A stretch of DNA of 63,688 nt from a virus, in the IMG/VR virus record IMGVR_UViG_3300027365_000013, positions 1-63,688 of that record, one strand, 5' to 3'. A model generated the notes under the pieces. It saw nothing but the letters and a program-made list of their open reading frames with translations, was not told the origin of the DNA and made no database searches. A program made the position numbers and the translations under genes. Below are positions 4,415 through 59,371 of the stretch, one piece after another (the first letter of the stretch is position 1; the number at the start of each line of letters is the position of its first letter).

Positions 4415-4452
4415 AAATAATACCTTTATTTTATAGTATTATTTATGAAATA

Positions 4453-4692
4453 TTATTCATGAATGATTGAGTTTTCGAAAGCCTTATTTTCGTAATATGC
4501 ATCAAATACTTCTTCTATCATAAAACGACATTTTATGATTTTATTTGAGCTAATATCCACAACACTTTCCGCAAGCTGTAACATACGTATATCAGAAGGT
4601 TGTGATTTTATTGCTTCTTGGTAAGTGCTTGTATTACTATAGTAATAACGAATTCTTTTACCATCTTTATTCTTTCTATCGATGTGCAACAT
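4453..4692 (-). CDS. Small hypothetical protein
   Basis: 79 residues, mixed basic N-terminus (LHIDRKNKDGKRIRYYYSN) and acidic C-terminus. It shares one base with the upstream stop codon, so the pair is probably coupled. Not recognised. Confidence 0.55.
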   Translation of the reverse strand: MLHIDRKNKDGKRIRYYYSNTSTYQEAIKSQPSDIRMLQLAESVVDISSNKIIKCRFMIEEVFDAYYENKAFENSIIHE

Positions 4693-5033: not shown

Positions 5034-5035
5034 TG

Positions 5036-6727: not shown

Positions 6728-6759
6728 CGTAATTATCCTCCATTATAGTTAACTACTGA

Positions 6760-6767
6760 TATTTATA
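6760..6767 (-). promoter_or_regulatory. T4-type late promoter TATAAATA
   Basis: Perfect TATAAATA on the minus strand, 33 bases before the ATG of the 563-residue protein. T4 late promoters consist of this -10 element without a -35 box. Confidence 0.65.
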
Positions 6768-6796
6768 GATCAATAATGGATAAAGATAATAACGAT

Positions 6797-7048
6797 TTAT
6801 GCCACGTCCCTGCCAATTCCAACAAGTTCATTAAAATCAAAATCATTATTCGATTTAACCCAAAAAGGTGGAGAATGCATAACATAATTACCAAGAATGC
6901 TACAGCTAAAGCTATGTTCTTGCATCCTTTCTTCTTGATACTCCATGAAAAATCCACGGAACAAACTGAAACGTGGGATAAATCTAGTACGACCAGTTCG
7001 TACAATTGTAGTAGTATCGTCAATAGTTTTTACGACTCGTGAACTCAT
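6797..7048 (-). CDS. Small basic hypothetical protein
   Basis: 83 residues, basic (IVRTGRTRFIPRFSLFRGFF). It starts two bases after the stop of the upstream gene. An overlapping minus-strand frame also exists, but this one fits the gene spacing. Function unknown. Confidence 0.5.
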   Translation of the reverse strand: MSSRVVKTIDDTTTIVRTGRTRFIPRFSLFRGFFMEYQEERMQEHSFSCSILGNYVMHSPPFWVKSNNDFDFNELVGIGRDVA

Positions 7049-7050
7049 AT

Positions 7051-7461
7051 TCAGTACTCCCGACGTAGGTTAATGAAATCCATACTGTCATTCAAAGTAT
7101 AATTGCCATCGTAGGGCACAGTAACTATAAATCCGAGTTCGCGACATTTTTGGCCATTATGACCTTGATCAGAAGGACGACTGAAAGTACCGACAATCTT
7201 AAATTTATTCCGAAGTTCTTCCTCACGCTTCTTTTCAGGGCTACCAGATTGATTAAGAATGTTCCTAAGAAAATGTTCGTCAATACCAAGAGCATCCATC
7301 ATGGTTTCTACAGCCTCGCCATATGCTTGTAGAGACGAATTGCTCTTGAGCGCTTCCTTTTGTTTATCAGACTTAAACATACCGTAGATACCCAGAAGTT
7401 CTTTAAGAGCAGTACGGTCACAACCATTGGGTACGTTTCTCAGATATTCACTTTTACTCAT
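7051..7461 (-). CDS. Hypothetical protein
   Basis: 136 residues; helical N-terminal two-thirds, then a short strand region GFIVTVPYDGNYTL. It is followed immediately by the next small gene. No family recognised. Confidence 0.55.
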   Translation of the reverse strand: MSKSEYLRNVPNGCDRTALKELLGIYGMFKSDKQKEALKSNSSLQAYGEAVETMMDALGIDEHFLRNILNQSGSPEKKREEELRNKFKIVGTFSRPSDQGHNGQKCRELGFIVTVPYDGNYTLNDSMDFINLRREY

Positions 7462-7470
7462 GGTATTATC

Positions 7471-7638
7471 TCAACCTTGTTTATGGATGTGTTTGATATT
7501 GACGTGCTTGAATTTATTATCGTTTACACCAGTAACAAAAGCAAATCCTCGCTGTCTTGAAAAGCTGTGAAATCGTACTTCGATTTCGGAATTCGATTTT
7601 ACCAGTCGTACTTTTTCATTTGTTTTAAAATTTTTCAT
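7471..7638 (-). CDS. Short basic protein (55 aa)
   Basis: 55 residues starting MKNFKTNEKVRLVKS, with an excellent ribosome site AGGAGGTAATT before the ATG. The middle RGFAFVTGVNDNKFKHVNIKHI is strand-rich and resembles a cold-shock or RNA-binding OB-type fragment (GFAFV), but it is too short to assign. Hypothetical. Confidence 0.55.
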   Translation of the reverse strand: MKNFKTNEKVRLVKSNSEIEVRFHSFSRQRGFAFVTGVNDNKFKHVNIKHIHKQG

Positions 7639-7731
7639 AATTACCTCCTAAACAAAATGGTTTAGGAAGTAACCTAAACCATTTATTAAATCATTGTTAA
7701 TGTGGGAATAACGATACTCACGTAAAATTCC

Positions 7732-7917
7732 TCATGAATCTAAATACTTATCTTGTAGTATAACAGCAAGTGTACGGTATTTCAACCATTTTCTTTTATT
7801 TTTATAGTGATAGGCTTTTAGTCTAGAATCATTCTTAGTAAACTTTGCAATTGATTTAAATGTGTCTTCTAGGGAAATAGCCTGTTGGTATAATTCTTTG
7901 ATACTATTTGTAATCAT
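7732..7917 (-). CDS. Small hypothetical protein
   Basis: 61 residues from MITNSIKELYQQ, whose ATG overlaps the end of the upstream gene; a longer frame exists but reads back through that gene. Helical and basic. Not recognised. Confidence 0.5.
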   Translation of the reverse strand: MITNSIKELYQQAISLEDTFKSIAKFTKNDSRLKAYHYKNKRKWLKYRTLAVILQDKYLDS

Positions 7918-8245
7918 AATCCAGTCCCATAAACATGGAGTTAATATTATCACTCATATAACTATTATAAACAATCCACTTCATCATTATTTTAAATTTT
8001 TTCCAATTCCTGATGTTGTGTCTAAAATTAAATGTGTACCTAAGTAATGACATACTATACATTATAGGATAGTCATTTGCAAGCGTTACATCCATTATTT
8101 TATCAAAAATCTCATATTGACCGCGCTGGACGATTTTTCCATAGTACCTTATACAGGGAGTTAAGGTAGCCACGTTATGAACTTTCGGTATAAACTCGAA
8201 CAGTTCCTCAAGACTCTCGATTTCTCTAAAGCTCATAGTTCTCAT
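7904..8245 (-). CDS. Hypothetical protein
   Basis: 113 residues, starts within the last codons of the sigma-factor gene (20-base overlap), which suggests coupled translation. Helical, rich in Met and Tyr. No family recognised. Confidence 0.55.
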   Translation of the reverse strand: MRTMSFREIESLEELFEFIPKVHNVATLTPCIRYYGKIVQRGQYEIFDKIMDVTLANDYPIMYSMSLLRYTFNFRHNIRNWKKFKIMMKWIVYNSYMSDNINSMFMGLDYDYK

Positions 8246-9023
8246 TGATGTATGACGCTAATCTTTTAATAGCTTGTCGCTCAATTTGCCTAATACGCTC
8301 AAGTGAAACACCATAGTCTTCAGATAACGAACTCAGTGTCTTCTTTTCACTATCCAGCCAACGTTTGTTGAGAATATCACGCTCACGATCATTGAGCGTA
8401 GGGATTGCTTCGTATAGTGCCTTAATTGATAGACTCTGTTGTTGTGAATTAACAATAGAAGTTTCAGGACTTTCAGTTTGAGCCACAACGTCGTGAACAT
8501 ACGTATTTGATTCATCTTCATAATCTGATCCTGTCGATGCTGGTACATACGATGTTCTCAATCGCGCCAACGCATCTTTTGCTTGTGACAAACTCATGTT
8601 GTAGTCTTTAGCAAAGTTACTCAAAGATTCTTCAGTAATGACTCCATTTGAGTTTTTATAATTATCAAGATTGAAAAATGCCCTACGATGCTCACGTGTA
8701 GTGATCGTTTTAACAATATTTTTGTTCTTAAAAACAAACTCATACATTGCACTTTTCACAAATGGAGCAACAAACGTTGACAATCGATTGCCTTTGGATT
8801 GGTCAAATCGTTCCAATGCATTGATGAATGCAATGACGCCTTCATTTACCATATCTTCAGTATCCATACCATAACCACGAAGTCCTTTCTCAATCTTTCC
8901 AATTAGAGGCATATATGCTTCAACAATACGATGTAGAGATTCATTGTCATCGTTTGTGATATATTTGTTATAAAGATCAGTTTCTTCTTCTAGTGTGAGA
9001 AATCTAACTTCACGACTACGCAT
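8226..9023 (-). CDS. Sigma factor, sigma70/sigma32 family
   Basis: 265 residues, close to RpoH length. Region 2 is clear: DMVNEGVIAFINALERFD (about 56-73) and a -10 recognition helix through LSTFVAPFVKSAMYEFV. Region 3 helices follow, and region 4 at the C-terminus has ALYEAIPTLNDRERDILNKR and the helix-turn-helix LSSLSEDYGVSLERIRQIER. It should bind host RNA polymerase core and redirect it to phage promoters. Unlike T4 gp55, which lacks a full region 4, both promoter-binding regions seem present. Whether it serves the TATAAATA late promoters is an inference. Ribosome site AAAGGGGAAC. Confidence 0.85.
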   Translation of the reverse strand: MRSREVRFLTLEEETDLYNKYITNDDNESLHRIVEAYMPLIGKIEKGLRGYGMDTEDMVNEGVIAFINALERFDQSKGNRLSTFVAPFVKSAMYEFVFKNKNIVKTITTREHRRAFFNLDNYKNSNGVITEESLSNFAKDYNMSLSQAKDALARLRTSYVPASTGSDYEDESNTYVHDVVAQTESPETSIVNSQQQSLSIKALYEAIPTLNDRERDILNKRWLDSEKKTLSSLSEDYGVSLERIRQIERQAIKRLASYINENYEL

Positions 9024-9174
9024 TAATGTTCCCCTTTGTGGTATTTTGTTTAAGGAAATGTATTACTTTAGGATCTTTCATATAGCTCTCAGAAGATCTA
9101 TAAGCGGTACCATAGCCATGAACTGAATAGTTCGGGCGTTTTATTTTAAACATTCGTAACAATCTATTAAGCAT
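9016..9174 (-). CDS. Short protein upstream of sigma gene (52 aa)
   Basis: 52 residues, MLNRLLRMFKIKRPNYSVHG at the start, basic. It ends overlapping the sigma-factor ATG by eight bases and sits 10 bases after a late-type promoter. Probably a coupled leader gene; weak start region, so moderate confidence. Confidence 0.4.
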   Translation of the reverse strand: MLNRLLRMFKIKRPNYSVHGYGTAYRSSESYMKDPKVIHFLKQNTTKGNINA

Positions 9175-9183
9175 AGTATGATA

Positions 9184-9191
9184 TATTTATA
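9184..9191 (-). promoter_or_regulatory. T4-type late promoter TATAAATA
   Basis: Perfect octamer on the minus strand at the head of the small gene/sigma factor unit. Confidence 0.5.
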
Positions 9192-9202
9192 TCTATATAA
9201 TG

Positions 9203-9538
9203 TCAATGTTTTTGTGATTCAATAATTTTCATTGACGCTTCCAATAAGCTGATTCCTTGACTTTCAGAAATTTCTTTTATTTCAGCAAAGGCTTTGGGGT
9301 ATTTTTCTTTTAGCTCAGCGTCACGAAGTTCTAAAATCACTGAATACTGTTCAATAAGAATTTCCCCATTATCCCCATCTCCGCCAACACTCCAAGAGAA
9401 ATGATCGTTATATTCTTGAAAGTCCAAATCATAGAGTTCTCTTAGATTTTGATTAGCTTCAGGGTGGTGGTTGGTTCCCTGTTCCCAACGTCCTTCTAAA
9501 ACCACACCATATTTTTCACAATCTTCTTTGAATGACAT
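9203..9538 (-). CDS. Hypothetical protein
   Basis: 111 residues from MSFKEDCEKYG, chosen because it starts just after the upstream stop; the longer frame would run inside the previous gene. Contains FSWSVGGDGDNGE followed by an acidic helix. Not recognised. Confidence 0.55.
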   Translation of the reverse strand: MSFKEDCEKYGVVLEGRWEQGTNHHPEANQNLRELYDLDFQEYNDHFSWSVGGDGDNGEILIEQYSVILELRDAELKEKYPKAFAEIKEISESQGISLLEASMKIIESQKH

Positions 9539-9539
9539 A

Positions 9540-10214
9540 TCACTTCTCCCACAATTTAATAACTTTAATTTTCTTATCGGGATAGTTATGAAGTACGTCC
9601 AGCATACGATTATTACCATCCACCAGTTCTAGTCCTTCACGCACAATACAAATGGGAATCTTAGTATCGATATCACGTGGATACTTCGTATCATTTTTAC
9701 GAACAAAGCCATTCTCATTAAAGCGAGTAACCACATCTTTCTTATTAATGCTGATAACTTCAGCAGTATTGCAATCCTTGATGGTATCAGCAGTGAAGTT
9801 GTATTCTAATTCAAGTACAAAAAGTACTTTATCCAGATCATTATCCATTTCAATCATTTCTTTGATACGGTTCTCTAGTAGATCATCGTTATTAAATGTG
9901 CCGGGACCAAGTTCATCACCGTAGTAACCACTACAAACATCTATGTCCCAGTTATCTTTTTCGTAGACGCCAGTATATACTTTTATTCGGTCAATACAGT
10001 ATAGCTCAATACCACTTGGCTTATAATTAACCCAACGTCCATTTTTACCACTATCTTCTTTAATAGTAATATAGGGGTCTGATACACTTTCTATTTCGAC
10101 GTTAGTTATGGTGCTACAACGACAAATAGAATCACAACCATTCGCTTCACAGTCGCGATACGTATCATAATCGGCATCAACACACCATCGATAGTTTCCG
10201 CTTACTTTAATCAT
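9540..10214 (-). CDS. Protein with ParB/sulfiredoxin-like C-terminal motif
   Basis: 224 residues. The first 40 residues are Cys-rich (CVDADYDTYRDCEANGCDS, then ICRC), possibly metal binding. Near the end CIVREGLELVDGNNRMLDVL resembles the DGNHR loop of ParB/Srx-type nuclease or ATPase folds. The assignment rests on that single motif. Confidence 0.4.
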   Translation of the reverse strand: MIKVSGNYRWCVDADYDTYRDCEANGCDSICRCSTITNVEIESVSDPYITIKEDSGKNGRWVNYKPSGIELYCIDRIKVYTGVYEKDNWDIDVCSGYYGDELGPGTFNNDDLLENRIKEMIEMDNDLDKVLFVLELEYNFTADTIKDCNTAEVISINKKDVVTRFNENGFVRKNDTKYPRDIDTKIPICIVREGLELVDGNNRMLDVLHNYPDKKIKVIKLWEK

Positions 10215-36107: not shown

Positions 36108-38261
36108 TCAATCGTCTTGTATGCCAAGATCGAATCCTTTGAATGTTTTTTCTGTCACATCGTTTTTGATACCACCAACAATGTATTCAGTCTTTTCTTT
36201 CTCTTGCGGTGCGTCCTGACTAGAGTCTGCCGAGATCCACGCATTAACCCAAGGTAGTGGGTGTGATTTAGGATACTCAAAATCAACATCTAAGCCAATG
36301 GCTCTCATACGCTTATTAGTCAGATAATCAACGAATTGCTTCAAGATTTCAGCATTTAGGCCAAGAATAGAACCTTTGTAAAATAAATACTCGGCCCAAT
36401 CTTTTTCTTGGTCACGTACATTAAGCATTATTTGTCTACATTCATCCTTTTCTCGTTCGGCAATTTTAATAAAATCTTTATCATCTTTTGGAAGCGTTTT
36501 AATAAGCCATTGTGTGAATCCTAAGTGAAGATTCTCGTCACGACATATTAGACGAATAATATCAGCATTACCTACCATAAGATCATTCTCGGCGAACGCC
36601 CATGAACCGTTACATTCATACATGATCGCAAAACATGTACCGCTTTTATAAGCTGCTGTGTCTTTCGACACAGACTAGACTATATCACAATCCCCTCGGG
36701 ATTCTCTGTGTTTCCAACACCATAGGCTTGTGTTGTACTCCCTTGCGGGATAGTCGTTGAACACCATACTATAAGTATTTCCAATAATATCCTTTATACA
36801 TTTTCTCATTAGATATTTTTCTATAAATTGTGGTTTTATAATCTGGGTTTTCATTTAATACATCTTTAACCGAGTCATACACTTTAGTGGTCGATGTAGT
36901 AGGGCACACTCTCAAAACTTTCTTACTACATACCAGCTTAGCTCGATTTGATAATTCAGTTTGAAGTTTTGTGCATTGAAAATGGTGTGTGCCTTCCTGA
37001 ATTCGTTTCTTAGACGAATCACCACCAATACTTGTTCCATCAGGTCTCTTTTGAAGAACATGACATCCAAGCCTAACCTGTTTCATGCTTCGTTCACGAT
37101 GCCACTCATGATCTAAAAACAAATGAGTTCCTTCCGCTAAACGTTTCAGGTTGGTACTTCGTTGTATAGAACCGCCCTGTAAATGATGCTTTCCCTGTCT
37201 TACCAACTCTTGTTGTGTTTCCGATGTCTTTTTACGACACTTTTCCTTTGCTATTTGGTATTTTTCAGGATTTCTCATTCTCCACGCTATCAATAATGCT
37301 GCTTTGAACTGTCCTTCGCGCATATGAATCCAATAATGTTCTTCTATTGAAACACATATTAAGTTAGTAATGTCGTTATTGGTTCTATCTCCATCAACAT
37401 AATGTATTTCGTATGTTCTACCAAATTCATCTACCGGAATTTTACCGTAATGTTTTTCCCAGATTTTTCGCCACATGTTTTCTATACTTATATTATAATG
37501 CTGCTGATTACCCAATTCCTTAACTTTTTAAAACCTTCACGATTACCTATTAAGTTGCGTTGTGGTATAAGGACTCTAAGGGTGTTCCAGCAATTAACAG
37601 AGTTATTCAATACTGCTTACACAGTAAGGGCACCTTCATTTTCATTTGATGCAAAACTTACATAAAATCGTAGCCCTTCTAGAGCATTAATTGCATGTAA
37701 ACATTTCCATAAAGACTCTTTATGATCATATGAATTGACTTTCATACCTGACATAAGTTCGGCATTTTTATAAATCAAATCATTATAATAACGAGCAATT
37801 TCAGCCGCTGCAAAATTAATCTCATAGTCATCCTTCATAGTATCAAAGACTTCACTTGGATCATTATATATATTTCGAATGATATGAGAATAACTACGAC
37901 TATGGATAGACCCTTCAAAGTAGTTCCATGTATTAATAAACGATTCTACTTCAGGTAATGATACGATTGGTAGTAATGTCAATGCTGGACCACGACCTTG
38001 AATAGAATCGAGCATAATCTGACGCTTCAGATTAGACGTAAAAATATGCTGACCAGCTTCAGAAACTTGTTTACGAAAGTCGCTGGAATCTTTGGTCAAA
38101 TCAACCTCTTCTGGAACCCACGAATAACCAATATGTGTTTTGTTCATACGATCAACCTTTGGATATTTCATAACATCAAAGCGTTGAATATCTACGTCCT
38201 CATCAAAAAATATTTTTTGATCTATATGTTTTTTCGATTGCGATTTATATATACTTTTCAT
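36108..38261 (-). CDS. nrdB: Ribonucleotide reductase small subunit NrdB, interrupted by a group I intron
   Basis: Exon 1 is 37649-38261 and exon 2 is 36108-36607; joined they give 370 residues (T4 has 388). Exon 1 carries WNYFEGSIHSRSYSHIIRNIY and LEGLRFYVSFA; exon 2 continues C-SWAFAENDLM and RLICRDENLHL. The junction reconstitutes FYVSFACSWAFAE, matching E. coli FYVSFACSFAFAE. Iron ligands E/H of the EaiH, E..H motifs are visible on both sides, and the radical tyrosine is expected in exon 1. Read without splicing, exon 1 stops ten residues into the intron. Confidence 0.9.
36608..37648 (-). ncRNA. Group I intron in nrdB
   Basis: 1,041 nt. The 5' exon ends ...GCAU; an internal guide GUGC pairs with it, giving a U-G wobble at the splice site (P1), and AUGAA just before the guide pairs with exon 2 UUCAU (P10). 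The intron ends in G. Core elements are seen: AATTGCTGGAACACCC with GGTAATCAGCAGC (P4-P6 area), GATATAGTCTAGTC near P7, a P9 hairpin CTGTGTCGAAAGACACAG and a TACATG/CATGTA hairpin near the 3' end. T4 nrdB also carries a group I intron. Confidence 0.85.
36769..37476 (-). CDS. HNH homing endonuclease inside the nrdB intron
   Basis: 235 residues from MWRKIWEKHYGKIP; an upstream TTG would start inside the intron core and is rejected. HNH region RTYEIHYVDGDRTNNDITNL and then ICVSIEEHYWIHM near the N-terminus; the usual HH pair reads HY here. Downstream are two to three copies of a short DNA-binding repeat (EGTHLF, EGTHHFQ) and a C-terminal NUMOD-like helix (VYDSVKDVLNENPDYK). It would cut intronless nrdB alleles and spread the intron. 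Confidence 0.8.
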   Translation of the reverse strand: MWRKIWEKHYGKIPVDEFGRTYEIHYVDGDRTNNDITNLICVSIEEHYWIHMREGQFKAALLIAWRMRNPEKYQIAKEKCRKKTSETQQELVRQGKHHLQGGSIQRSTNLKRLAEGTHLFLDHEWHRERSMKQVRLGCHVLQKRPDGTSIGGDSSKKRIQEGTHHFQCTKLQTELSNRAKLVCSKKVLRVCPTTSTTKVYDSVKDVLNENPDYKTTIYRKISNEKMYKGYYWKYL

Positions 38262-38518: not shown

Positions 38519-39052
38519 TTATAGCACACAACTCTCACAATGATCATCATCTTCATCTTGAGTAGTCATATCAGAAGATTGGTTTTCAACCATGTCTTCC
38601 CTAAACTCAGTTACTTCATCATTAGTGTTAATATAGTAACGAGTTTTATGACCCAGAGCATAAGCATAAAGCATATCTTCCATAAGAACACTCATTGGAA
38701 TTTCATTATCTTCATAATGATTTGGGTTATAAGACAGGTTCACACTGATAGCTTGGTCTGTGAATTTTTGTATAACCGCCATTATTTCGATATAACCTTT
38801 ATTACTTTTAATATCCCATAACAGGTCGTACTTATTTTTAAGTTTTTGGAAACTTGGTACGACAATTGGAAGACGTTTATCGCGATTCTTTTTAACGGTG
38901 ATTAAGTTACGTACTGGTTCTACACCATTTGTGGAATTGTGACTAACACAGCCGTTTGGTAAAACATAACTATGAGTGCCATCCACGCCACCTACTTCGA
39001 TATCAAATGTTGGGGTTTTCTTCACATTCCTCTTAATGCTTTTGACTTTCAT
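38519..39052 (-). CDS. nrdA: NrdA C-terminal part fused to C-terminal split-intein half
   Basis: 177 residues. Residues 1-39 are the intein C-half (ending GCVSHN), then the extein begins STNGVEPVR, matching S-N-A-T-N-G-I-E-P in E. coli NrdA. It contains KNKYDLLWDI, the substrate-cavity segment MSVLMEDMLYAYALGHKTRYY and the redox tail CESCVL. It must be joined to the middle fragment to give active reductase. AGGAGA precedes the ATG. Confidence 0.9.
   Translation of the reverse strand: MKVKSIKRNVKKTPTFDIEVGGVDGTHSYVLPNGCVSHNSTNGVEPVRNLITVKKNRDKRLPIVVPSFQKLKNKYDLLWDIKSNKGYIEIMAVIQKFTDQAISVNLSYNPNHYEDNEIPMSVLMEDMLYAYALGHKTRYYINTNDEVTEFREDMVENQSSDMTTQDEDDDHCESCVL
38936..39052 (-). other. C-terminal split-intein half, NrdA site 2 (39 aa)
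   Basis: Starts MKVKSIKRNVKKTP, contains the block F strand TFDIEV and ends with block G NGCVSHN followed by Ser of the extein. Partner: the 116-residue half ending the middle NrdA fragment. Confidence 0.85.
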
Positions 39053-39112
39053 CGAACTCTCCTATTATTTTAATTATTTCTTTTAAAAACTTTCAGTTTT
39101 TCATAGGGGGCA

Positions 39113-41848
39113 TTAGCCCCCTTTTACTTCTACTATATCGTCACCTTCAATTAGATCACTAACAAATACCCACACCTTCTTACCATTTCGTTCAACTAAG
39201 AATCGATGTTTAGGGGTACAGTGAAGAATGCTACCATCTTCTAGTATAATTTCATCGACTGAAGTTTCACCATTATAATAGAGTCCGGTGACTGCTTCCT
39301 CTTCTCCGTTCATGTTAGTTACTGTCACACCTTCGTCTACGTCAAACCACATATCTCCACCAGATTTAATGATTTCATCATAAATAAGGCCCTGTGACTC
39401 AGCAAATTCTTTAAACGTAAGGTCACCCAAATTAGTGCGAATAACTGTATCAAACGACATACAATTCATTACTTGAGAATTACTTTCACTTGGCATAGTT
39501 GCTGAAAGCGTGGCATTGCGCACACCATATTCTTTAGCATCCTCTCGTAGTTTGTCCCAATCTAATTCAAGCTTGTTATCGACTATAGAATCTACACGCT
39601 TCTTATACGTATCAACCAGCATCACACCTTTTGAACGTTTAGTGTATTCTGATCGTTTACAAGCACCACGTTCTTTGGCCAAATCGATTGTCGCTTCTTG
39701 CATGTAATATGCCATATGCTCCATCCAAGTATGAACCAATGGCAATGATTTAGGATCGTTATATCCCACACCATTTTTAGCCAAGAAATACGCAAGATTA
39801 TTAACGCCTATGCCTAAAGGTCTAAATTCTTCCGTTGATAGCTTCGCTTGAATCATTGGATAGTCTTGCATGGACAATAAGTTATCTAATGCTCTCACAA
39901 TTCTACGAAGTGGATGTTTCATGGTTTGTGGAGAACTGAATTCACCAAGATTGGTATTGGCCAATGTACAAAGAGCAATACGTCCGTTTTCATCATCAGT
40001 ACTGTAAAATGGGCGTGTAGGCAAGGCTATTTCTTGGCATTGCGATGTTAGTATTCCATTAAACATACCCATGTTTCGTTTTTCTTCAGTAAAACAGTAA
40101 GTAGGTTCAACCCTTCCATCGTTTACTACGTCTTCAATTTTAACATGTCTTTTTGCATCCCTATTAGGTTCTCTAATATTGATACTTACACGCTTTAACT
40201 CCAAGCCCAAATTTAGCAACTCATATGTATCATACGTGCTAATAAGCAAGCGATAGCCATCCTTACACTCATACAGCGATTTCTCACCGGTACCATTATT
40301 GGTAGGTAGTTCATACTTACCAGACTCTACATATTTCTTCACTTTTGAAGATACCCCTAACGTCTGTAACATTAGTTGTAACTCTTTTAAAAATGGTTTA
40401 TTGGTTGATACTACACACAAGCCATTGTTGTGATTATAACCATCAGCGTCAATATAGCCGGAAAGCCACTTAAGCCGAGAATCGATAGTGTAGGAGGAAT
40501 CCGGTACGAAGAACTTTTCCATAATTCCTTTAGGATATCCCACAGTTCTATTATATTTCGGTTCTGAAGTCCAACGTTCTACCGATGTAAACTGATTAAC
40601 AAGTGCTTGTTTCTTATCATACAAAAACAATTTATTTCGGCCTCGTCCATAACATCCGTCGCCAGTAAAGAACCCATTATCATAAGCATGCTCTAAGTGT
40701 TTGTTGCCTTCTATCACCGGCAGGTCAAACTTTATAAGTTTATCACCACGTTTCAATTCTTGTGCTTCAACCTTTTTAACTGTCCTCCCTTCTTTAATGT
40801 AAAACTTATGATACAACGTACAATCAAGTTCATATCCACTATCTGTTGTTACTGTGACAATGTTAGAAGCTTCTGAAGTTTGCCTTACTGTCGTTTTAGA
40901 CCATTCTTCACCGTTCCATACATTCACATCTTTATCAACTAATGATGATATTACTTCATAGCCCTTATCTGTGAGAATTTTTGTGTCACCCGTAACACAC
41001 AAATTTGACTGGTGAATAGGGTCAAACTTACGATCAAACGGCGTGTGACGATTCATCTCATCAACAAAGTGTAGATAAACCCGACCTGTATTCTTACCTT
41101 CAGTTAAAAGCTTACGGAAAATTTCACCTGATGAAATCGTCTTTTTCATTTTAACGTTTACGACTTCACTTTTTTCATAAAATTCGTATAGCTCTTTAAA
41201 CTTCTTAGGATCTTCGTAGAATGAATCATACAGTCCTTCTAGATTTGGAGGAAGAAGTGTAATAGACTCACCCTTTACTAGGCGTTCTAGGAAATATCCA
41301 GAAACACCAATACTATAATCAAGGTGACGCTCACGGGTCTCTTCAGTACCCTTGTTGTTCTTTAGTACCATTAAGCTTTCTATATCAGTATGCCACAGGG
41401 GGAAATGCATAGTTGCTGAACCGCCACGTAAACCGCCTTGGCTGTTATGCGTTAGTACCATCTGAGATTCTTTATCGTCTGTGGTAAAGAAAGTATGAGT
41501 ATCTTCTACTGTAATATCTATATATGTTTCATCATTATCTTGACCAATCACAATATCACTCAAATATGTAAGACCGCTGTCGGTAATAACCACATCTTCA
41601 AAATTTAATTCCCTCGGCTTCCTCTCTTCCATTACTCCTTGGTCATTGAAGATCATTATTGGATGATTAGTGGAGCAATTTATAACAGTTCCATTAGTAA
41701 ATTCAAGACGTACTTGATCTTGTGATGGTACATAAGTGTCGAACTTATCAGTTACTTCTTTAAATACCGTTTCTTTTGTATCAGGATCATACGTCTTAAT
41801 TTTCATTCCCTTTTTGACTTCACTTATGGGTATTAATTTAGTTTTCAT
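39113..41848 (-). CDS. nrdA: NrdA middle part with three intein segments
   Basis: 911 residues in this order: intein C-half (1-135), NrdA segment SQGGLRGGSAT to PIHQSNL (136-283), a full intein with LAGLIDADG nuclease (284-603), NrdA segment CQEIALPTRP to NSQVMN (604-795) and a new intein N-half (796-911). The extein carries the active-site region SNL-CQEIALPT and ATMPSESNSQV. After splicing, the N part (302), these segments (148+192) and the C part (138) total 780 residues, the usual size of class Ia NrdA. Confidence 0.92.
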   Translation of the reverse strand: MKTKLIPISEVKKGMKIKTYDPDTKETVFKEVTDKFDTYVPSQDQVRLEFTNGTVINCSTNHPIMIFNDQGVMEERKPRELNFEDVVITDSGLTYLSDIVIGQDNDETYIDITVEDTHTFFTTDDKESQMVLTHNSQGGLRGGSATMHFPLWHTDIESLMVLKNNKGTEETRERHLDYSIGVSGYFLERLVKGESITLLPPNLEGLYDSFYEDPKKFKELYEFYEKSEVVNVKMKKTISSGEIFRKLLTEGKNTGRVYLHFVDEMNRHTPFDRKFDPIHQSNLCVTGDTKILTDKGYEVISSLVDKDVNVWNGEEWSKTTVRQTSEASNIVTVTTDSGYELDCTLYHKFYIKEGRTVKKVEAQELKRGDKLIKFDLPVIEGNKHLEHAYDNGFFTGDGCYGRGRNKLFLYDKKQALVNQFTSVERWTSEPKYNRTVGYPKGIMEKFFVPDSSYTIDSRLKWLSGYIDADGYNHNNGLCVVSTNKPFLKELQLMLQTLGVSSKVKKYVESGKYELPTNNGTGEKSLYECKDGYRLLISTYDTYELLNLGLELKRVSINIREPNRDAKRHVKIEDVVNDGRVEPTYCFTEEKRNMGMFNGILTSQCQEIALPTRPFYSTDDENGRIALCTLANTNLGEFSSPQTMKHPLRRIVRALDNLLSMQDYPMIQAKLSTEEFRPLGIGVNNLAYFLAKNGVGYNDPKSLPLVHTWMEHMAYYMQEATIDLAKERGACKRSEYTKRSKGVMLVDTYKKRVDSIVDNKLELDWDKLREDAKEYGVRNATLSATMPSESNSQVMNCMSFDTVIRTNLGDLTFKEFAESQGLIYDEIIKSGGDMWFDVDEGVTVTNMNGEEEAVTGLYYNGETSVDEIILEDGSILHCTPKHRFLVERNGKKVWVFVSDLIEGDDIVEVKGG
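39116..39463 (-). other. N-terminal split-intein half, NrdA site 2 (116 aa)
   Basis: Begins CMSFDTVIRTNLGDL (block A) and has block B CTPKHRF; ends without nuclease. A normally positioned split, with only 60 bases between the two halves' genes and no homing enzyme between them. Confidence 0.85.
40040..40999 (-). other. Contiguous intein with LAGLIDADG endonuclease, NrdA
   Basis: 320 residues inserted between NrdA SNL and CQEI. Block A CVTGDTKILT, block B TLYHKFY, LAGLIDADG motifs GFFTGDGCYGRG and LSGYIDADGYNH, and C-terminal FNGILTSQ. The last residue is Gln and the penultimate Ser, not the usual His-Asn, so the C-terminal cleavage would use Gln cyclisation, as in a few viral inteins. Confidence 0.85.
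41444..41848 (-). other. C-terminal split-intein half, NrdA site 1 (135 aa)
   Basis: Contains the second half of block A (ISEVKKGMKIKTYD), block B STNHPIMIF and block G MVLTHN before extein Ser. Its partner is only 18 residues long, making this an extreme N-terminal split. Confidence 0.85.
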
Positions 41849-43280
41849 TCCAGAATTTAACTCCTTCTAATTTTTTATTGTAATCTTTTTTAAATATATA
41901 CTTACCACCATTATTAAAGAATGAGTCTTCAAACTTAGACATCGGTTCATTAATCTGGGTTGGTAAACTATATGTCCGCTTCAAGCATTTCTTAATATCT
42001 CTGTAGTTTTTAAAAACTATAGAATTTATCACATATATCTTTTTGGAATTAGCTGATACTAAGTATGGTGTCTCCTTCAAACATTTAGGTGTAGTATGTA
42101 ATTTCTCACCAGTCTTCAAATTGAATACACATACAATTCCTTTAGTGATACCAACTAATCTTGAATCTGTTTGGAAGTATTCATAATCCACTGTTTTAAC
42201 ATCACCTGTATCTATGTTACGGCATACAACTAAGCGTTCCTTATGTCCGATATACTTATCTCTATTAGCAACGAATTCTTCGTAAGGGATACGAACCTCT
42301 TCGCCACTAGAGCGTAGATAACACTTATACTTGTTTGCGAAAATTTGATTTGTATACCTATGCTTATTTTTCTTATACTCATTGATAGTAACACGAACAT
42401 TCATTTTGTCTATATTGTCGTAAACAACCACAAATCCCTTATTCGGGTGCACAAAAATTTCTTTTGATGCTGCGTACTCGTCTTTATCTACTAGTATATA
42501 ATCACCACCTGATTTATGAACCACCGCGACTTTACCATTAGTAACGCCGACAAGTTCATCATTATCATTAAATTCGGTTATTGGCACCATAGAGCATTCA
42601 CCAGTACGAATATTCAAACATGATACTCTTCCTTTAGTAATTCCTATGTACTCTTCTGATATTATGAACTTTTCTCTCGGTATTCTTTTTGTATTTCCAG
42701 ATGGAATGTGTAATGCATGGACAAATCCCTGTAATTCTTTGCGATGAAGTTTAGGATCGAAATCATCTATATGAATTTTCATAAGATTGTCGTTTAAATC
42801 ATAAACATTCATCATGGATGTACTAATATGTTTGTGTTTACCATTCTGATATTCTTCCACACTAACGCGATACGTAGTACCATTGTCATACATACACAAA
42901 ACACTTCCAGCGCCACAATTTGATCCAGATGCGTTTATTACATTATAAAAATCTGAACGTCTACTAACATCATATCTATCATGATATCTACGCTCTGCAT
43001 CAAACGCTTCCTCCTTAGTTCTAAAGTATTCAATTTTGTAACTAAAGTTTCCGGGTTGTTCAATGAGTCTCTTTTTAAAGTCTGTTACTGAAGTCGTCGT
43101 AAAATACGTGGTTAGCAACCCATGTTTATTTGTTCTATGTTTTGTCTTAACTCCCGAATAATACATACTGCACTCTTTATCAAAAATTAAATAGCAATAA
43201 TAACAGGAAGACTCAAGAGGGTTAGACTGCAACCCTCCATATGTGGTTTCAGACATAAAGTCTTTTACCTCATCATACAT
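41838..43280 (-). CDS. GIY-YIG-like homing endonuclease between NrdA fragments
   Basis: 480 residues. The N-terminal 110 residues resemble a divergent GIY-YIG domain: CYYCYLIFDKECSMYYSGVK, then YFRTKEEAFDAERRYHDRYD and FYNVINASG. The rest holds repeats of about 45 residues of the form V-x-N-h-x-T-G-E-x...F/Y...YhGhTKG (for example NIRTGECSMVPITEF and NIDTGDVKTVDYEYF), probably DNA contacts. It overlaps both flanking genes by a few bases. It occupies the place of a homing enzyme serving split-intein site 1. Confidence 0.65.
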   Translation of the reverse strand: MYDEVKDFMSETTYGGLQSNPLESSCYYCYLIFDKECSMYYSGVKTKHRTNKHGLLTTYFTTTSVTDFKKRLIEQPGNFSYKIEYFRTKEEAFDAERRYHDRYDVSRRSDFYNVINASGSNCGAGSVLCMYDNGTTYRVSVEEYQNGKHKHISTSMMNVYDLNDNLMKIHIDDFDPKLHRKELQGFVHALHIPSGNTKRIPREKFIISEEYIGITKGRVSCLNIRTGECSMVPITEFNDNDELVGVTNGKVAVVHKSGGDYILVDKDEYAASKEIFVHPNKGFVVVYDNIDKMNVRVTINEYKKNKHRYTNQIFANKYKCYLRSSGEEVRIPYEEFVANRDKYIGHKERLVVCRNIDTGDVKTVDYEYFQTDSRLVGITKGIVCVFNLKTGEKLHTTPKCLKETPYLVSANSKKIYVINSIVFKNYRDIKKCLKRTYSLPTQINEPMSKFEDSFFNNGGKYIFKKDYNKKLEGVKFWNEN

Positions 43281-44242
43281 TACTCGTCTTCCTCATCGTC
43301 ATCTATAACTTCTACATACATGTCTGGACGTAGACAACAACTTTTAACAGCAGCACGTGCAGCCTTGATAAATGGTATTAGGCCAGTATGTTTAATCTCA
43401 CCATTGCGTATAGAACTTCCTTCAGGACGCAGACGACCTAGATTCAAACCAAGTCCGGCTTTCTTAGAAATATAACGCATAATACCCACATTGGTATGAC
43501 CTAAGCTGTCAAGATCATCATCGGTTTCCATCACTACACAGCTACTATATTGACGTGTAGGTGTACGCGCACCTGCTAATACTGGGGTTGGCAAACCTGT
43601 CTTAAATAGACTAATATCGTCATAGAACTCTTTGATGATTTTCAGACGTTGCTTTTTTGTAAAATGTGATTTTACAACATCATTACCATCATAATCGTAC
43701 ATATACATAGTCATTGCGATAAGCATGTACATCACCTGTGGACTTTCAAAATGTTGTCCAGTAGTACGATCTTGCGCAAGGTATTTGGTTACTAATTGTT
43801 GAGTAGCCGCATAACGGAAGTTGTAGTCACGATCATGAACAATGTAATCGCCTAGTTCATTTATCTCTTCTTCTGTAAATTCTTCCAGAAGTGTGTCGTC
43901 ATAATAGCCTAAGTCTATGTTCTTTTTAATAATATCAATAAAGGAACATGGAATAAAATCTTTATACACTTCTTTACGAATATTAAAAATTTCTAAACGA
44001 CCAGCAACTTTATCATAATTAGGAGTTTCTTCACAGATAAGATCTCGTGCTGCATTTATAAGAGTATCATGTATTTCAGTTGTATGAATACCATCATATA
44101 GATTAAGATGGGCTTTTAGCTCAATTTCAGATGCCGAGACGCCAGAAATATTTTCCACTGCCCACATGAGGACTTTATGAATTTTTTCATAATCAAGAAG
44201 TTCACTATCCCCATTACGTTTTATTACTTTAATTTCTTTCAT
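43280..44242 (-). CDS. nrdA: NrdA N-terminal part with an 18-residue intein N-half
   Basis: 320 residues from MKEIKVIKRNGDSE (AAGGAG upstream). It carries the ATP-cone domain (RNGDSELLDYEKIHKVLMWA), LPTPVLAGARTPTRQYSSC with the first active-site Cys, and ends KAARAAVKSC followed by the intein half. E. coli NrdA continues AVKSC-SQGGVRGG, and the next fragment starts with SQGGLRGG. Confidence 0.92.
   Translation of the reverse strand: MKEIKVIKRNGDSELLDYEKIHKVLMWAVENISGVSASEIELKAHLNLYDGIHTTEIHDTLINAARDLICEETPNYDKVAGRLEIFNIRKEVYKDFIPCSFIDIIKKNIDLGYYDDTLLEEFTEEEINELGDYIVHDRDYNFRYAATQQLVTKYLAQDRTTGQHFESPQVMYMLIAMTMYMYDYDGNDVVKSHFTKKQRLKIIKEFYDDISLFKTGLPTPVLAGARTPTRQYSSCVVMETDDDLDSLGHTNVGIMRYISKKAGLGLNLGRLRPEGSSIRNGEIKHTGLIPFIKAARAAVKSCCLRPDMYVEVIDDDEEDE
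43283..43336 (-). other. N-terminal split-intein half, NrdA site 1 (18 aa)
   Basis: CLRPDMYVEVIDDDEEDE is all that remains: the nucleophile Cys, one strand and an acidic tail. Such tiny N-halves are known in atypical split inteins; the partner half starts with a basic stretch MKTKLIPISEVKKG that could pair electrostatically. Confidence 0.8.
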
Positions 44243-44711: not shown

Positions 44712-45746
44712 TTAGTGTCGCTGATATCTTCCTCGCATGACTTCATAAGAACGATAATGGTTTTTGGGTGCAATTAACACGGAATGATAGTTACTGAAGG
44801 GTTTCAAGCCCTTCTGGGAGTCGATACGTCGTATTACATTTTTCTGAAGAGTGCTATGGTATGGCCTGATTATCTGTCCCAAGAACGGGATACCTCGGTC
44901 AGTCCCTTGAATAAAAACTTTTTTTGGGTTAAGCTTTGTGTTAATATGACGACATAGTGCCTTAATCTCTCCGACTATGCTTACAAGATAATCTTTCGAA
45001 CCAGATAGTATTATAAAGTCATCCATATAGCGGACATAATATTTAACTTTCAATGTATGTTTTATAAACTTATCTAATACATCTAGCAATAAATTTGCTA
45101 AAAGTTGACTAGTTAGATTTCCTATCGGGATACCAAACAGCGGTTTAGCATTCACTAAACGCTTACGCTTAGGGATAATCAAAAATTCGCTTATAGAAGA
45201 ATTGATTATTGGATTGTCTAATGGGTCATTAAACAACACTTCATGCAATAGTTCACTTAACCAAAATTCATGGACGTATTTATTAACAATATTGAAAATA
45301 ATATTTTTATCAATGGACATGAAAAAATTACTCAAGTCACATTTTAAAAAATACGCCTTCTCAGAAAAATTATTGGATGCTGATCGCACCATACGTTCTA
45401 GGTCGTGTACTCCCTTATGTGTACCTTTATTGGGTATACAGGCGTATGTGTGGTAAATAAGCGACGAATAAATTTGAGGTGACACTAGTCCATAAATTAG
45501 GTGGTGGACTATTCTATCTCGGAATTGCGCAGCCCATACTTCTCTAGGGCGAGGATATTTCACCACAAAACAAATACTTCTACCTATCTTATAATTTCCA
45601 GTAATCAAATCAGTATACAACTCAAAGAGATTACTTTCTAAGTTCATTTCAAATTCTAAAGAACTATACGATTTTCTTTTGGATCTTCGACAACGGTAAT
45701 ATGCCGAGACCACATCATAAAACGTTATGTCACATTTAACAGACAT
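44712..45746 (-). CDS. DGR reverse transcriptase
   Basis: 344 residues. DGR-type RT features: CRRSKRKSYSSLEFEMNLE near the N-terminus, EVWAAQFRDRIVHHLIYGL, CDLSNFF with Asp137, the DGR-diagnostic GIPIGNLTSQLLAN (about 205-218), VRYMDDFIIL with catalytic Asp242-Asp243, and LGQIIRP. With Avd it copies the template RNA, mis-incorporating at adenines, to make cDNA for the variable repeat. The start overlaps the stop of a short frame through the template repeat (TAATG). Confidence 0.92.
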   Translation of the reverse strand: MSVKCDITFYDVVSAYYRCRRSKRKSYSSLEFEMNLESNLFELYTDLITGNYKIGRSICFVVKYPRPREVWAAQFRDRIVHHLIYGLVSPQIYSSLIYHTYACIPNKGTHKGVHDLERMVRSASNNFSEKAYFLKCDLSNFFMSIDKNIIFNIVNKYVHEFWLSELLHEVLFNDPLDNPIINSSISEFLIIPKRKRLVNAKPLFGIPIGNLTSQLLANLLLDVLDKFIKHTLKVKYYVRYMDDFIILSGSKDYLVSIVGEIKALCRHINTKLNPKKVFIQGTDRGIPFLGQIIRPYHSTLQKNVIRRIDSQKGLKPFSNYHSVLIAPKNHYRSYEVMRGRYQRH

Positions 45747-45988
45747 TAAAGTTTACTCGGTTTTAAAAAAAAACGAAATCTATTCTGCTCTAGACCTATA
45801 GGAATTGGTCTTGTTATTGTTGTTCTGATTTCCATTATTGAAATTCTGATTCCAAGAATTAGAAGAACGCGTATTGCTCTTATACACACCACCATACATG
45901 AGGTTACCCGACATACATGGAAGTTGCCAAATGGCATATCCGTGAGATTTCTTAGAGACTCAGGGGAGCATACCAGTACAGATTCCAT
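45746..45988 (-). CDS. Short frame spanning the template repeat (doubtful gene)
   Basis: 80 residues. It begins with the ATG touching the avd stop and ends in a TAATG overlap with the RT gene, so ribosomes could cross the template region. The frame differs from that of the variable repeat, and the sequence (ESLRNLTDMPFGNFH) has no known family. It may serve only for translational coupling. Confidence 0.3.
   Translation of the reverse strand: MESVLVCSPESLRNLTDMPFGNFHVCRVTSCMVVCIRAIRVLLILGIRISIMEIRTTITRPIPIGLEQNRFRFFLKPSKL
45785..45867 (-). repeat. DGR template repeat (TR)
   Basis: 83 bases, starting 39 bases before the RT gene. Read in the variable-repeat frame it encodes N-rich text (SWNQNFNNGNQNNNNKTNSY) because of many AAY codons, the hallmark of DGR templates. 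It matches VR except at five positions (45815, 45820, 45821, 45839, 45844), each an A on the coding strand. Confidence 0.93.
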
Positions 45989-46360
45989 TTATAATTTTTT
46001 AGACAGAAACCTAACCCATTTCTTTATTTGCGGGCCAGCAATGCCTATATTACACACTACATCGGCATAGCGCTTGTCTGATAGTATATTCAGATCTTTG
46101 GCTAAACGTAAATAGAGAGATAACTCTTCAATACGCTCTTGTAGTGAACTTACTAAGATATGTTTTCTAGTATTGTCACAACAAGCATGAGCTTTAATAA
46201 TATTCCTAACGATATCGTATGCAGTATTTCTCATATCAAAACCTATTGTATCTTTATAGTCATTCTTAATATGACGTGAAATAACATTTACCTGTTTTAA
46301 AATTTCATAGGTAATATGGTATAAGTCAGGAACATCTTTATTTTTCATGTTTTGCCTCAT
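45989..46360 (-). CDS. avd: DGR accessory variability determinant Avd
   Basis: 123 residues (a start at the next Met would give 119). All-helical, basic, with the layout of the Avd four-helix bundle: DLYHITYEILKQVNVISRHI, TAYDIVRNIIKAH, ELSLYLRLAKDL and IGPQIKKWVRFL-like end. Avd forms a pentamer that binds RT and template RNA. Position between target and TR-RT matches phage BPP-1. Confidence 0.8.
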   Translation of the reverse strand: MRQNMKNKDVPDLYHITYEILKQVNVISRHIKNDYKDTIGFDMRNTAYDIVRNIIKAHACCDNTRKHILVSSLQERIEELSLYLRLAKDLNILSDKRYADVVCNIGIAGPQIKKWVRFLSKKL

Positions 46361-46363
46361 GTG

Positions 46364-46382
46364 TAGTTGGTCAATCCAACTA
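46364..46382 (-). promoter_or_regulatory. Leader hairpin before avd
   Basis: TAGTTGG/CCAACTA inverted repeat with a five-base loop, just after the predicted transcription start and before the avd ATG. Possible operator or mRNA stabiliser. Confidence 0.4.
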
Positions 46383-46387
46383 TATGT

Positions 46388-46416
46388 ATCTTAGCAAGTT
46401 TATAACGAAATGTAAA
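46388..46416 (-). promoter_or_regulatory. Sigma70-like promoter of avd-TR-RT
   Basis: Minus-strand TTTACA, 17 bases, TAAGAT, directly after the terminator of the target gene. It gives the mutagenic module its own transcript. Confidence 0.5.
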
Positions 46417-46447
46417 GAAAAATTTGGCCTCTCAGGAGGCCAAATTT
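46416..46447 (-). terminator. Rho-independent terminator after the DGR target
   Basis: Twelve-base-pair stem AAATTTGGCCTC/GAGGCCAAATTT (46420-46447), four-base loop, then TTTCTTT on the minus strand. Confidence 0.7.
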
Positions 46448-46476
46448 CCATAATCTCTGTTTCACTTAACGAATCA

Positions 46477-46503
46477 ATTAAACCACCCAGAGGGTGGTTT
46501 AAT
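46477..46503 (-). other. Hairpin/cruciform downstream of VR
   Basis: Perfect 12-base-pair inverted repeat ATTAAACCACCC with three-base loop, about 100 bases beyond the variable repeat and with no U-run. DGR retrohoming in BPP-1 is helped by a hairpin/cruciform at a similar place, so this is the candidate. Confidence 0.5.
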
Positions 46504-46586
46504 ATATAACTACCATATTTCGTCAGGACGCTCACTGCGTTCAACGCCTTCCTCACAATAAAGACAAAAGCCGTCTAATCGGTCTT

Positions 46587-47285
46587 TCAGACCTCTAGCC
46601 AGCGGACTGCTCTAGACCTATAGGAATTGGTCTTGTAATTGAAGTTCTGATTTCCATTATAGAAACTCTGATTCCAAGAATTAGAAGAATTATATTCCAT
46701 CGATGTCCAATAATATGCCACCTCAAATGCTTGACTACCACCATCTTGGAACTCACTTACTCCTGTCTGACTAGGATCACTAGTACTATAACCACTACCT
46801 ACAGGATTGCTATTTGGATTAGTACCATTAACAGCATCATGTAGCGCTCTACTAGATGTGTAATTATCAGCAGTAGTGGGCTTCAGAAACCGATAACAAA
46901 TCTCTAGTTCATCGGGTGCTGGTAGGTGCCAATCATTAAACCCATTAATATCTAAGTTAGCACAATATTGTGCGGCTGGGTGATCACTCAAACCAGCCGC
47001 TACAATAGCATCCATATTGGCTTTGCCATTATAGGTGCTGTTAGCGCCACTAGTGGTCGTTTGACTAGTCTTCCATTGTATAGTTCCATTATATTCGCCT
47101 AGTTCTTTAGGGGCTATGATGATAGCGTATTCCTTCCCATCTACTAAGATATTACCGCCTGCGTAGTAGCCACCGGCACTTTCGATGAATTTGCCTGCAT
47201 CTGTTATTAGATCGGGCGTAGTGAATACTTGGTTTTCACGTATACGAATGTTCTTGAGACCTGCGTTATATATTTTGACAGCCAT
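46587..47285 (-). CDS. DGR target protein, DUF1566-like (C-type-lectin-type fold)
   Basis: 232 residues. NGFNDWHLPAPDELEICYRF is the DUF1566 signature and the C-terminus AYYWTSMEYNSSNSWNQ... to SYRSRAVRWLEV carries the variable repeat. Variable residues (now S, Y, F and Y at former Asn codons) would lie on the ligand-binding face. The N-terminal 60 residues look like an attachment domain. Probably a receptor-binding or accessory tail-tip protein. AGGAG and a late promoter lie upstream, consistent with a virion component. Confidence 0.88.
   Translation of the reverse strand: MAVKIYNAGLKNIRIRENQVFTTPDLITDAGKFIESAGGYYAGGNILVDGKEYAIIIAPKELGEYNGTIQWKTSQTTTSGANSTYNGKANMDAIVAAGLSDHPAAQYCANLDINGFNDWHLPAPDELEICYRFLKPTTADNYTSSRALHDAVNGTNPNSNPVGSGYSTSDPSQTGVSEFQDGGSQAFEVAYYWTSMEYNSSNSWNQSFYNGNQNFNYKTNSYRSRAVRWLEV
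46607..46689 (-). repeat. DGR variable repeat (VR)
   Basis: 83 bases ending 20 bases before the target stop codon. Compared with TR it has A-to-G, A-to-T (four) or similar changes at five template adenines, and none at C, G or T. The 3' 28 bases, including the presumed initiation site of mutagenic homing, are identical in both copies. Confidence 0.93.
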
Positions 47286-58021: not shown

Positions 58022-59371
58022 TTACTTCTTTCGTTTGTTCTTACGAACAACTACTTGAACCAAGGGACTGTAAACTCCTTGGACTTCATCGTCTACTGGA
58101 TTCCAGTAAAATCCCGAAGTGCGATTTATACCTTTAACTATGTAATACCTAAGTGCTGGTAATCCATCAACTAGATGATTACTAGCGGCATTAACATCTG
58201 CATTAGCAGTATGCCCACAACAACGACATTTGAATATTTCTTTGTCTTTATTTGAGCGGTTAAGGCAATGGACAAATCCACAAGAATTACATCTTTGGCT
58301 TCTATAAGCAGATGATTGCTCAACTAACTGGACACCAGCCAGTAAAGCCATATCTTCTAGTTTATCACGTATCAATGTGTTTGTGAATCCGTTTAAAAAT
58401 TTGCTTCTCTTTTGTTTATGAAATATATTTTTTATTTCTTCTAAACGGATTTCGCTTATATCACTTAAATCTAACTGGTTTATTGTCCAGTTAATGAAAT
58501 TCTTTCTGTGTTCTACCGTTCTATTAAAGGACTTACTACCTTTCTTTTTAGTAGAAAGAGCTGTTAAAATATCCTTAAAATCTATACCATGTGCGTTGTT
58601 ACTTGATTGATATACATTGTTATTTCTATCAACTAAGGTAAGTAGTTTGTTTATACCCTGATCTATGGCTACCGTTTTGCCTACTTCTTTGATATTAGGA
58701 ATCGCTACTTTAAAACGCACTGAAATATAGTTTTCCGTTAGCAAGAACGATTTTAGTCTTTCTTCTTTCTTACTGTCCAAGTAATTATATCGCTTGTGTT
58801 TTTTCGATAGAATGAATAATTTATTCTTAGGTAAGTATCTTTTCTTATAGGTTGCATCGAATAATGAACCAAACATAAACAATAAATCAAACTCTTTTGT
58901 ATCAACCGATTCGGTCATTGATACTAAAATTGTTCCTAGCTCTGCTCCTACTTGTTTATTGATCTTGGGCTTTTTTATGAATCTGTTTTTGTATAACCAG
59001 CTATTAATAATTGCTTCTCGTGTAGTATTGCCTTTTTCTCGTGCTTTCTCTAAGGCATAACACTTCTTTTCGTATTTCTTGAGAAGCGATTTGATCATAC
59101 CGTTTGCTTGTGTGACAGCACATTTGATAGCCCGCCCAGATAGAACCAAGTCATCTGTCTTTAGTTGGTTTGTAAACGGATAGAACTTTTGTGCTTTATA
59201 CGCTGATTTGTTTTGTGTGCCTGTATTTAAGTTATGTTCCGCCCAATAGAAGTCAATAGCTCGTTTAAGTACAATACGATAGTCCCTCAAAAATATATTA
59301 AGGTGTTTTAGTTTACCAGTATTATTATCTGAGAGATAATGCTTAGTTGACTTAATTATTGTACCAGCCAT
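58022..59371 (-). mobile_element. tnpB: TnpB of an IS607-family element
   Basis: 449 residues. The RuvC-like site is intact: Asp in VAIDQGINK, Glu in IRLEEIKNIF and the last Asp in TANADVNAASNHL, with a zinc finger CNSCGF...CRCCGH. TnpB is an RNA-guided nuclease that cuts the empty donor site next to a short motif, using RNA from the element's right end. It follows tnpA by two bases. The guide RNA should come from the 3' end and the 170 bases beyond, but its boundary cannot be placed. Confidence 0.9.

Follow-up and report, generated by a model that had tools for sequence, protein, structure and literature searches.

NrdA is encoded by three reading frames

The window analysed in this study is a virus record of 63,688 bases (IMG/VR record IMGVR_UViG_3300027365_000013), in which all pieces of NrdA, a class Ia ribonucleotide reductase, lie on the minus strand within positions 38519-44242. 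The enzyme is coded by three minus-strand open reading frames (ORFs), A, B and C, and is very probably made as three polypeptides that are trans-spliced by two split inteins, with a further intein excised in cis. ORF A (43280-44242, 320 amino acids) has the C-terminal end ...AAVKSC followed by CLRPDMYVEVIDDDEEDE. ORF B (39113-41848, 911 amino acids) starts with 135 residues that finish in VLTHN and continues with SQGG...; its interior carries 320 residues (CVTGDTK...GILTSQ) inserted between SNL and CQEI, and it ends in ...SQVMN plus 116 residues. ORF C (38519-39052, 177 amino acids) opens with 39 residues finishing in CVSHN, after which the reductase resumes at STNG. The exteins amount to 302 + 148 + 192 + 138 = 780 residues. 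Every piece size given in the original prediction, which was made from the letters alone (18/135, 320 and 116/39 residues, exteins of 780), is borne out by the sequence, whereas the product mass of about 88 kDa given there is calculated here as 89.7 kDa. The A/B break holds an ORF of 480 residues and the B/C break is a spacer of about 60 nucleotides in which several stops lie in frame and an AGGAG resembles a Shine-Dalgarno sequence; a single sequencing error therefore explains neither break.

As a reference, the uninterrupted NrdA of 781 amino acids from a close relative, L004 (IMGVR_UViG_3300021979_000003), was used. The original prediction had put forward alignment to E. coli and T4 NrdA as a check; alignment of the conceptual spliced product to L004 NrdA gave 694 identities out of 781 (89%), no gap at any junction and a sole gap in the C-terminal tail. 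In the DNA alignment L004 has no insertion at any of the three sites and the flanks meet precisely there, with one compensating gap pair about 30 nucleotides downstream of the join at site 3. Because the junctions are ungapped against the intact protein, the intein boundaries and the empty sites are exact. At site 3 the window phage has Ser, the +1 nucleophile, where the empty allele of L004 has Ala, which is unusable as a +1 residue. At the site 1 junction several synonymous changes are crowded (AGT TGT/AGC CAA GGC vs TCA TGC TCA CAG GGT; here and below a slash marks the insertion point), as would be expected if flanking DNA had arrived with the element.

The spliced product also matches the class Ia NrdA chains of the PDB over its full length (E ~1e-235). 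It contains the motifs RQYSSC, SNLC, IALC, RYY and CESC, and it has counterparts for all of the catalytic and radical-transfer residues C225, C439, C462, Y730-731 and the C-terminal cysteine pair. The non-synonymous divergence (dN) is 0.06 for extein A, 0.10 for B1, 0.07 for B2 and 0.05 for C, with a synonymous divergence (dS) above 2 for A and B1 and saturated for B2 and C. The NrdA fragments are thus under strong purifying selection. The anatomy, boundaries, residues, homology and extein selection described here were all computed.

Table 1. Parts of the nrdA locus in the window. IntN and IntC, N- and C-terminal intein halves; aa, amino acids.
Feature	Positions	Strand	Basis
NrdA extein A, 302 aa, ATP cone and N-terminal half	43337..44242	-	Pfam/NCBIfam matches; exact join on L004 homologue
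IntN of intein 1, 18 aa, CLRPDMYVEVIDDDEEDE	43283..43336	-	Cys1; aligns with 12-22-aa IntN at same site in relatives
Predicted free-standing GIY-YIG-type homing endonuclease, 480 aa	41838..43280	-	Same-gap ORFs 40% identical; BFVD matches
IntC of intein 1, 135 aa, LTHN then Ser+1	41444..41848	-	Pfam Intein_splicing / PT-HINT; relatives 40-57% identical
NrdA extein B1, 148 aa	41000..41443	-	Homology; exact join
Contiguous intein 2, 320 aa, LAGLIDADG type	40040..40999	-	PF14528 E 8e-13; TIGR01445 E 1.5e-10
NrdA extein B2, 192 aa	39464..40039	-	Homology; exact join
IntN of intein 3, 116 aa (CMSFDTVIRT...)	39116..39463	-	TIGR01445 above cut-off; split-intein relatives
Spacer between ORFs B and C	39053..39112	-	Sequence; fold -18.3 kcal/mol, z -3.8
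IntC of intein 3, 39 aa, CVSHN then Ser+1	38936..39052	-	TIGR01443 intein_Cterm above cut-off
NrdA extein C, 138 aa, C-terminus HCESCVL	38519..38935	-	NCBIfam PRK09103 E 3e-41

Two split inteins of different architecture and one contiguous intein

Both split inteins have their halves in separate genes and exteins of one protein that join exactly, and both IntN begin with Cys. Intein 1 is an 18/135-residue split at C/SQGG between ORFs A and B. Its IntN fits the atypically split class, with IntN of 15-37 residues (VidaL 16, PolB16 15 and AceL-TerL 25), as opposed to about 100-130/35-50 residues in canonical split inteins (PMC13014065). VidaL, PolB16 and AceL-TerL share with intein 1 the short IntN and the split near the N terminus, but they belong to other host proteins and are distant in sequence. 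The reconstituted intein 1 is a Hint domain (Pfam Intein_splicing E 2e-7, PT-HINT E 3e-6) with CSTNHP in block B, DITVEDTH in block F and the terminal LTHN/S, all conserved in its relatives; the aligned family keeps Cys1, CS[TN][ND]HP, an IDI..V..T block and VLTHN.

The family has contiguous members in L023, L024, SUMAE and Thanatos, and since contiguous versions lie at site 1 in other phages, the two halves belong together. Members split with an endonuclease are found in L025, KARL-1 and many metagenomic phages, and L021 is split with just about 137 nucleotides between the halves. The module of an 18-residue IntN, an endonuclease of the same family and an IntC recurs in L025, and with an IntN of about 19 residues in L038, L044, L052, L058, L064 and others. 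The NrdA inteins of KARL-1 (Acinetobacter) and Thanatos (Shewanella) are 43-45% identical to intein 1, the former split with an endonuclease and the latter contiguous. Unlike intein 1, they sit one codon upstream, with Cys+1 instead of Ser+1, and a single intein was found in each. In L024 (= L057, positions 1-1221) the linker of the contiguous intein, LDEDN-MVKTKK, reads as the joined split form, which suggests a re-fused split intein; the same nrdA additionally carries a split intein at SNL/C.

Intein 3 is a 116/39-residue split at VMN/STNG, a size that fits the canonical class. It passes the NCBIfam cut-offs at both intein ends (TIGR01445 and TIGR01443) and has CTPKH in block B, DIEV..THSY in block F and the terminal CVSHN/S. 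On alignment, all catalytic intein residues are thus present in both pairs of halves, and the claim of three inteins, including two that are split in different ways, stands with these residues intact and with exact joins on an intein-free homologue. Profile matches link intein 3 to the solved Pho RadA, DnaE and VidaL inteins. Its relatives are the split inteins of phage KP13-7, Campylobacter phage inteins and a jumbo-phage NrdJ intein; over its whole length it is 28-36% identical to the split inteins of KP13-7, those of Campylobacter phage IBB_35 and the NrdJ intein. A single-sequence scan with intein 3 returned no close relatives. A scan with its family left 80 loci; the members inspected there lie at a Px[EGAS]/[TS] loop and none at VMN/STNG, a site seen for intein 3 alone within the loci scanned. 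Placement at the common PxE/TSS site was ruled out, as the empty allele puts the insertion 7 residues further on.

The spacer between ORFs B and C forms two hairpins, the first overlapping the stop of ORF B, and its AGGAG precedes the ATG of ORF C. Readthrough or frameshifting across this split was considered and ruled out: the two ORFs share a frame, but the spacer has multiple stops and ORF C its own start.

Intein 2 lies in cis at SNL/C, directly before the catalytic cysteine: it has Cys1, a C-terminal Ser-Gln and as Cys+1 the equivalent of Cys439, residue 604 of ORF B aligning with E. coli 439. It contains the Hint blocks and a LAGLIDADG domain (PF14528, PF14890 and TIGR01445) and is of a common phage NrdA kind, matched by 335 phage records, the best 51% identical. 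ICP1 NrdA also carries a LAGLIDADG intein (PMC10448857).

A predicted GIY-YIG endonuclease in the intein 1 break

The start of the 480-residue ORF overlaps the stop of ORF A (TAATG) and its end overlaps the start of ORF B. It is 40% identical (E ~1e-74) to ORFs of about 369 residues in the same gap of other phages. Searches of Pfam, including PF01541, and of PDB sequences gave no useful match. An AlphaFold2 (AF2) model from two sequences was too poor, with a mean predicted local distance difference test score (pLDDT) of 41. A model from a 10-sequence alignment reached a mean pLDDT of 53, mostly about 65-80 in the N-terminal part, and with this middling confidence matched GIY-YIG nucleases in BFVD (best E 2e-12); against PDB folds it found no chain at E <= 0.001. 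Y30, Y41-S-G, E96 and N113 are invariant across the 10 sequences with plausible spacing, although Pfam PF01541 is not matched. The ORF is predicted to be a GIY-YIG-type homing endonuclease. Other phages have Vsr-like/DUF7487 ORFs (L054, L056, L077 and L078), an HNH/NUMOD3 ORF (L053) or a KARL-1-type ORF in the same gap, so this landing site has served different endonucleases.

Homing enzymes had been expected between the halves of the split inteins. This holds for the intein 1 gap and not for the intein 3 gap, whose roughly 60 nucleotides contain no ORF or endonuclease gene, and thus the fractured-gene pattern in its textbook form applies to the first break alone. The intein 3 break may be the relic of a lost endonuclease.

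Proposed assembly of NrdA

From the above we infer the pairing of the halves, their splicing, the order of events and the endonuclease activity. NrdA would be produced as three polypeptides. The IntN ending polypeptide A would dock on the IntC starting B to form one Hint domain, which would excise itself and link ...AAVKSC to SQGG.... Excision in cis of the intein within B would rejoin SNL to CQEI, the catalytic cysteine being the +1 residue. A second Hint domain would form from the IntN that closes B and the IntC that opens C, linking ...SQVMN to STNG..., and the outcome would be a single reductase of 780 residues. The endonuclease gene in the intein 1 break could home together with the intein.

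No residue required for splicing is missing (Cys1, block-B His, block-F Asp/His, a terminal HN or Q and Ser/Cys+1). In E. coli numbering, intein 1 falls at 292/293 and intein 3 at 630/631, and we take the intein positions to be substrate, allosteric or active-site loops of NrdA, with intein 3 near the phosphate loop. Exact joins, splicing residues, purifying selection and loop positions together make trans-splicing the best reading of the locus. Several points weigh against it. The locus is known from a single metagenome-derived record, with no second copy of the exact allele. With Intein_splicing the reconstituted intein 1 scores 31.1 bits, slightly under the Pfam gathering score of 35.8, and intein 3 scores 35.7 bits, at that threshold. 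Intein 2 terminates in Ser-Gln and not in His-Asn, a Gln ending that relative L034 shares.

Two split inteins in one protein had been thought to need orthogonal pairing. The geometry eases this need, as the IntN of intein 1 and the IntC of intein 3 together lack the central Hint blocks and so cannot splice. The only mispairing possible is that of the IntN of intein 3 with the IntC of intein 1, which are both on fragment B and have all blocks between them; this pair could misreact and yield a circular B. Inteins 1 and 3 have no significant full-length similarity, and only this divergence guards against the circular product.

The three fragments might instead assemble non-covalently into an active enzyme, with the intein pieces as docking tails. 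There is a precedent in phage Aeh1, whose nrdA remains functional although mobE splits it (PMC3653736), relatives have charged-tail nrdA breaks at another loop (L064, L048, L063, L083 and L071), and the IntN of intein 1 is strongly acidic (net -8). Yet the relatives' tails lack Cys1 and HN+1, whereas those of the window NrdA amount to complete split inteins in which no catalytic residue is missing, and at site 1 other phages carry contiguous forms. Since Ser in place of Ala at the +1 position of site 3 is also consistent with splicing, and the breaks sit in what we take to be active-site or allosteric loops, such an assembly is improbable. Even less likely is a decaying locus, in which splicing has been lost from at least one of the two split inteins and the phage depends on the host reductase. 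Campylobacter phage nrdA genes with several inteins have been interpreted as degenerating (PMC3653736), nrdB of the window phage is interrupted as well, and intein 3 has no remaining endonuclease; but all exteins are intact under strong purifying selection, no NrdA piece has a frameshift, and the product retains counterparts of the catalytic and radical-transfer residues. An assembly or sequencing artefact is hardly credible: the arrangement has one metagenomic record as its sole source, but many independent metagenomes, as well as the isolate KARL-1, have yielded homologous split modules at site 1, and the several stops and ribosome-binding site of the B/C spacer are no single-base error.

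Doubly split NrdA in other phages

A scan seeded with intein-1 relatives yielded 50 loci, 49 of which fall in 29 clusters; these are counts and not frequencies. In seven clusters a single nrdA carries two split inteins with both halves of each: at site 1 and SNL/C in L045, L054/L055, L074, L078 and L080/L081, at site 1 and NA/SAT in the L058 group, and at SNL/C and PxE/TSA in L071/L072. The cultured Klebsiella phage KP13-7 is an eighth case (SNL/C and PGE/TSSQ), and L059 and L068 are probable further ones cut by contig ends. The combination had been called exceptional. Within the data searched, the exact combination of three inteins and the VMN/STNG site are indeed seen in the window phage only, but at least eight other lineages have two complete split inteins in one NrdA. 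When the literature was searched for proteins that naturally carry two split inteins, engineered cases alone came up; coverage of subscription papers was incomplete and absence is no proof. The doubly split NrdA is a recurrent pattern, undescribed as far as the literature searched shows, and no priority is claimed.

In the L058 group (L058 6980-7612 and 8473-9915; also L061, L062, L063 and L067) an ORF consists of an IntC, the 8-residue extein SQGGIRNA and a second IntN, and this octapeptide between two split inteins occurs in several independent metagenomes. L071 encodes its NrdA as four pieces, and one of the joints is an Aeh1-style charged-tail break with no intein. Such breaks without intein motifs are found near reference residue 465-470 in L071 (8217-8516 and 8494-9459), L048, L063, L064 and L083, with a basic tail on the upstream fragment and an acidic one on the downstream fragment, like an Aeh1-style non-covalent split. 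In L038, L039, L046, L047, L058 and L059 the upstream fragment at this loop ends in a Hint-like remnant (...LTLDNGQEITLPGQHKVLLSNGEKKKVRELTDDDDI...) lacking intein start and end motifs, possibly a dead split intein retained as a docking tail. Overall, tandem trans-splicing by two orthogonal split inteins is likely to be a recurrent build of phage NrdA, arising through repeated fracture and endonuclease turnover at a few active-site loops and extending to the 8-residue extein of the L058 group and to four-piece enzymes (L071 and L058, probably L059).

Other features of the window

In nrdB (36108-38261) the N part (37617-38261) and the C part (36108-36671) are separated by an HNH endonuclease ORF (36769-37515). 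There is a weak group I intron match (RF00028, 31 bits, under cut-off), and nrdB is intact in L004. A diversity-generating retroelement (44712-47285) has a reverse transcriptase (44712-45746), a template copy (45785-45867) and a variable copy (46607-46689) inside an ORF (46587-47285), with 5/5 differences at template adenines. There is also a transposase-like ORF (58022-59371, phrog_12300).

Comparison with known systems

Among the fractured genes of phage metagenomes that Dassa et al. reportedly described in 2009 are NrdA cases in which a free-standing endonuclease gene lies between the two parts of a split intein. Intein 1 has the same layout, but those genes were described as broken in two, whereas the window NrdA is in three pieces and its second break is free of an endonuclease. 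NrdA of KP13-7 (OP617745, L017) also has two complete split inteins, and of the inteins aligned none is closer to intein 3 than its second one (36%). Unlike in the window, both splits are canonical with an intervening ORF in each gap, and there is an additional interruption at SQG with an HNH ORF. NrdA of this phage, spread over several ORFs (4028-9558), would be a good laboratory model.

NrdA of Campylobacter phage IBB_35 has three annotated inteins in the same order, the third related to intein 3 (PMC3322345), but the first and third are contiguous and the exact sites differ. The nrdA-a/nrdA-b genes of Aeromonas phage Aeh1 resemble the window in that NrdA is in pieces through an endonuclease gene; they contain no intein and their fragments function unjoined, whereas both breaks of the window carry full intein motifs. 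Several splicing events, including trans-splicing, are likewise said to occur in the split dnaE of Trichodesmium erythraeum, for which Liu and Yang reportedly found multiple inteins in 2003, but this is a cellular polymerase. The window NrdA is a new combination with one new site within the known split-intein fractured nrdA genes.

Engineered tandem trans-splicing uses orthogonal split inteins, and orthogonal pairs are hard to find (PMC7090010, PMC12707363). The window NrdA offers natural split-intein pairs that would be required to work side by side on one protein, one of them with an IntN of 18 residues. With the series of nrdA genes that are empty, contiguous, split with or without an endonuclease, apparently re-fused or broken with charged tails, gene breakage and its reversibility become directly testable.

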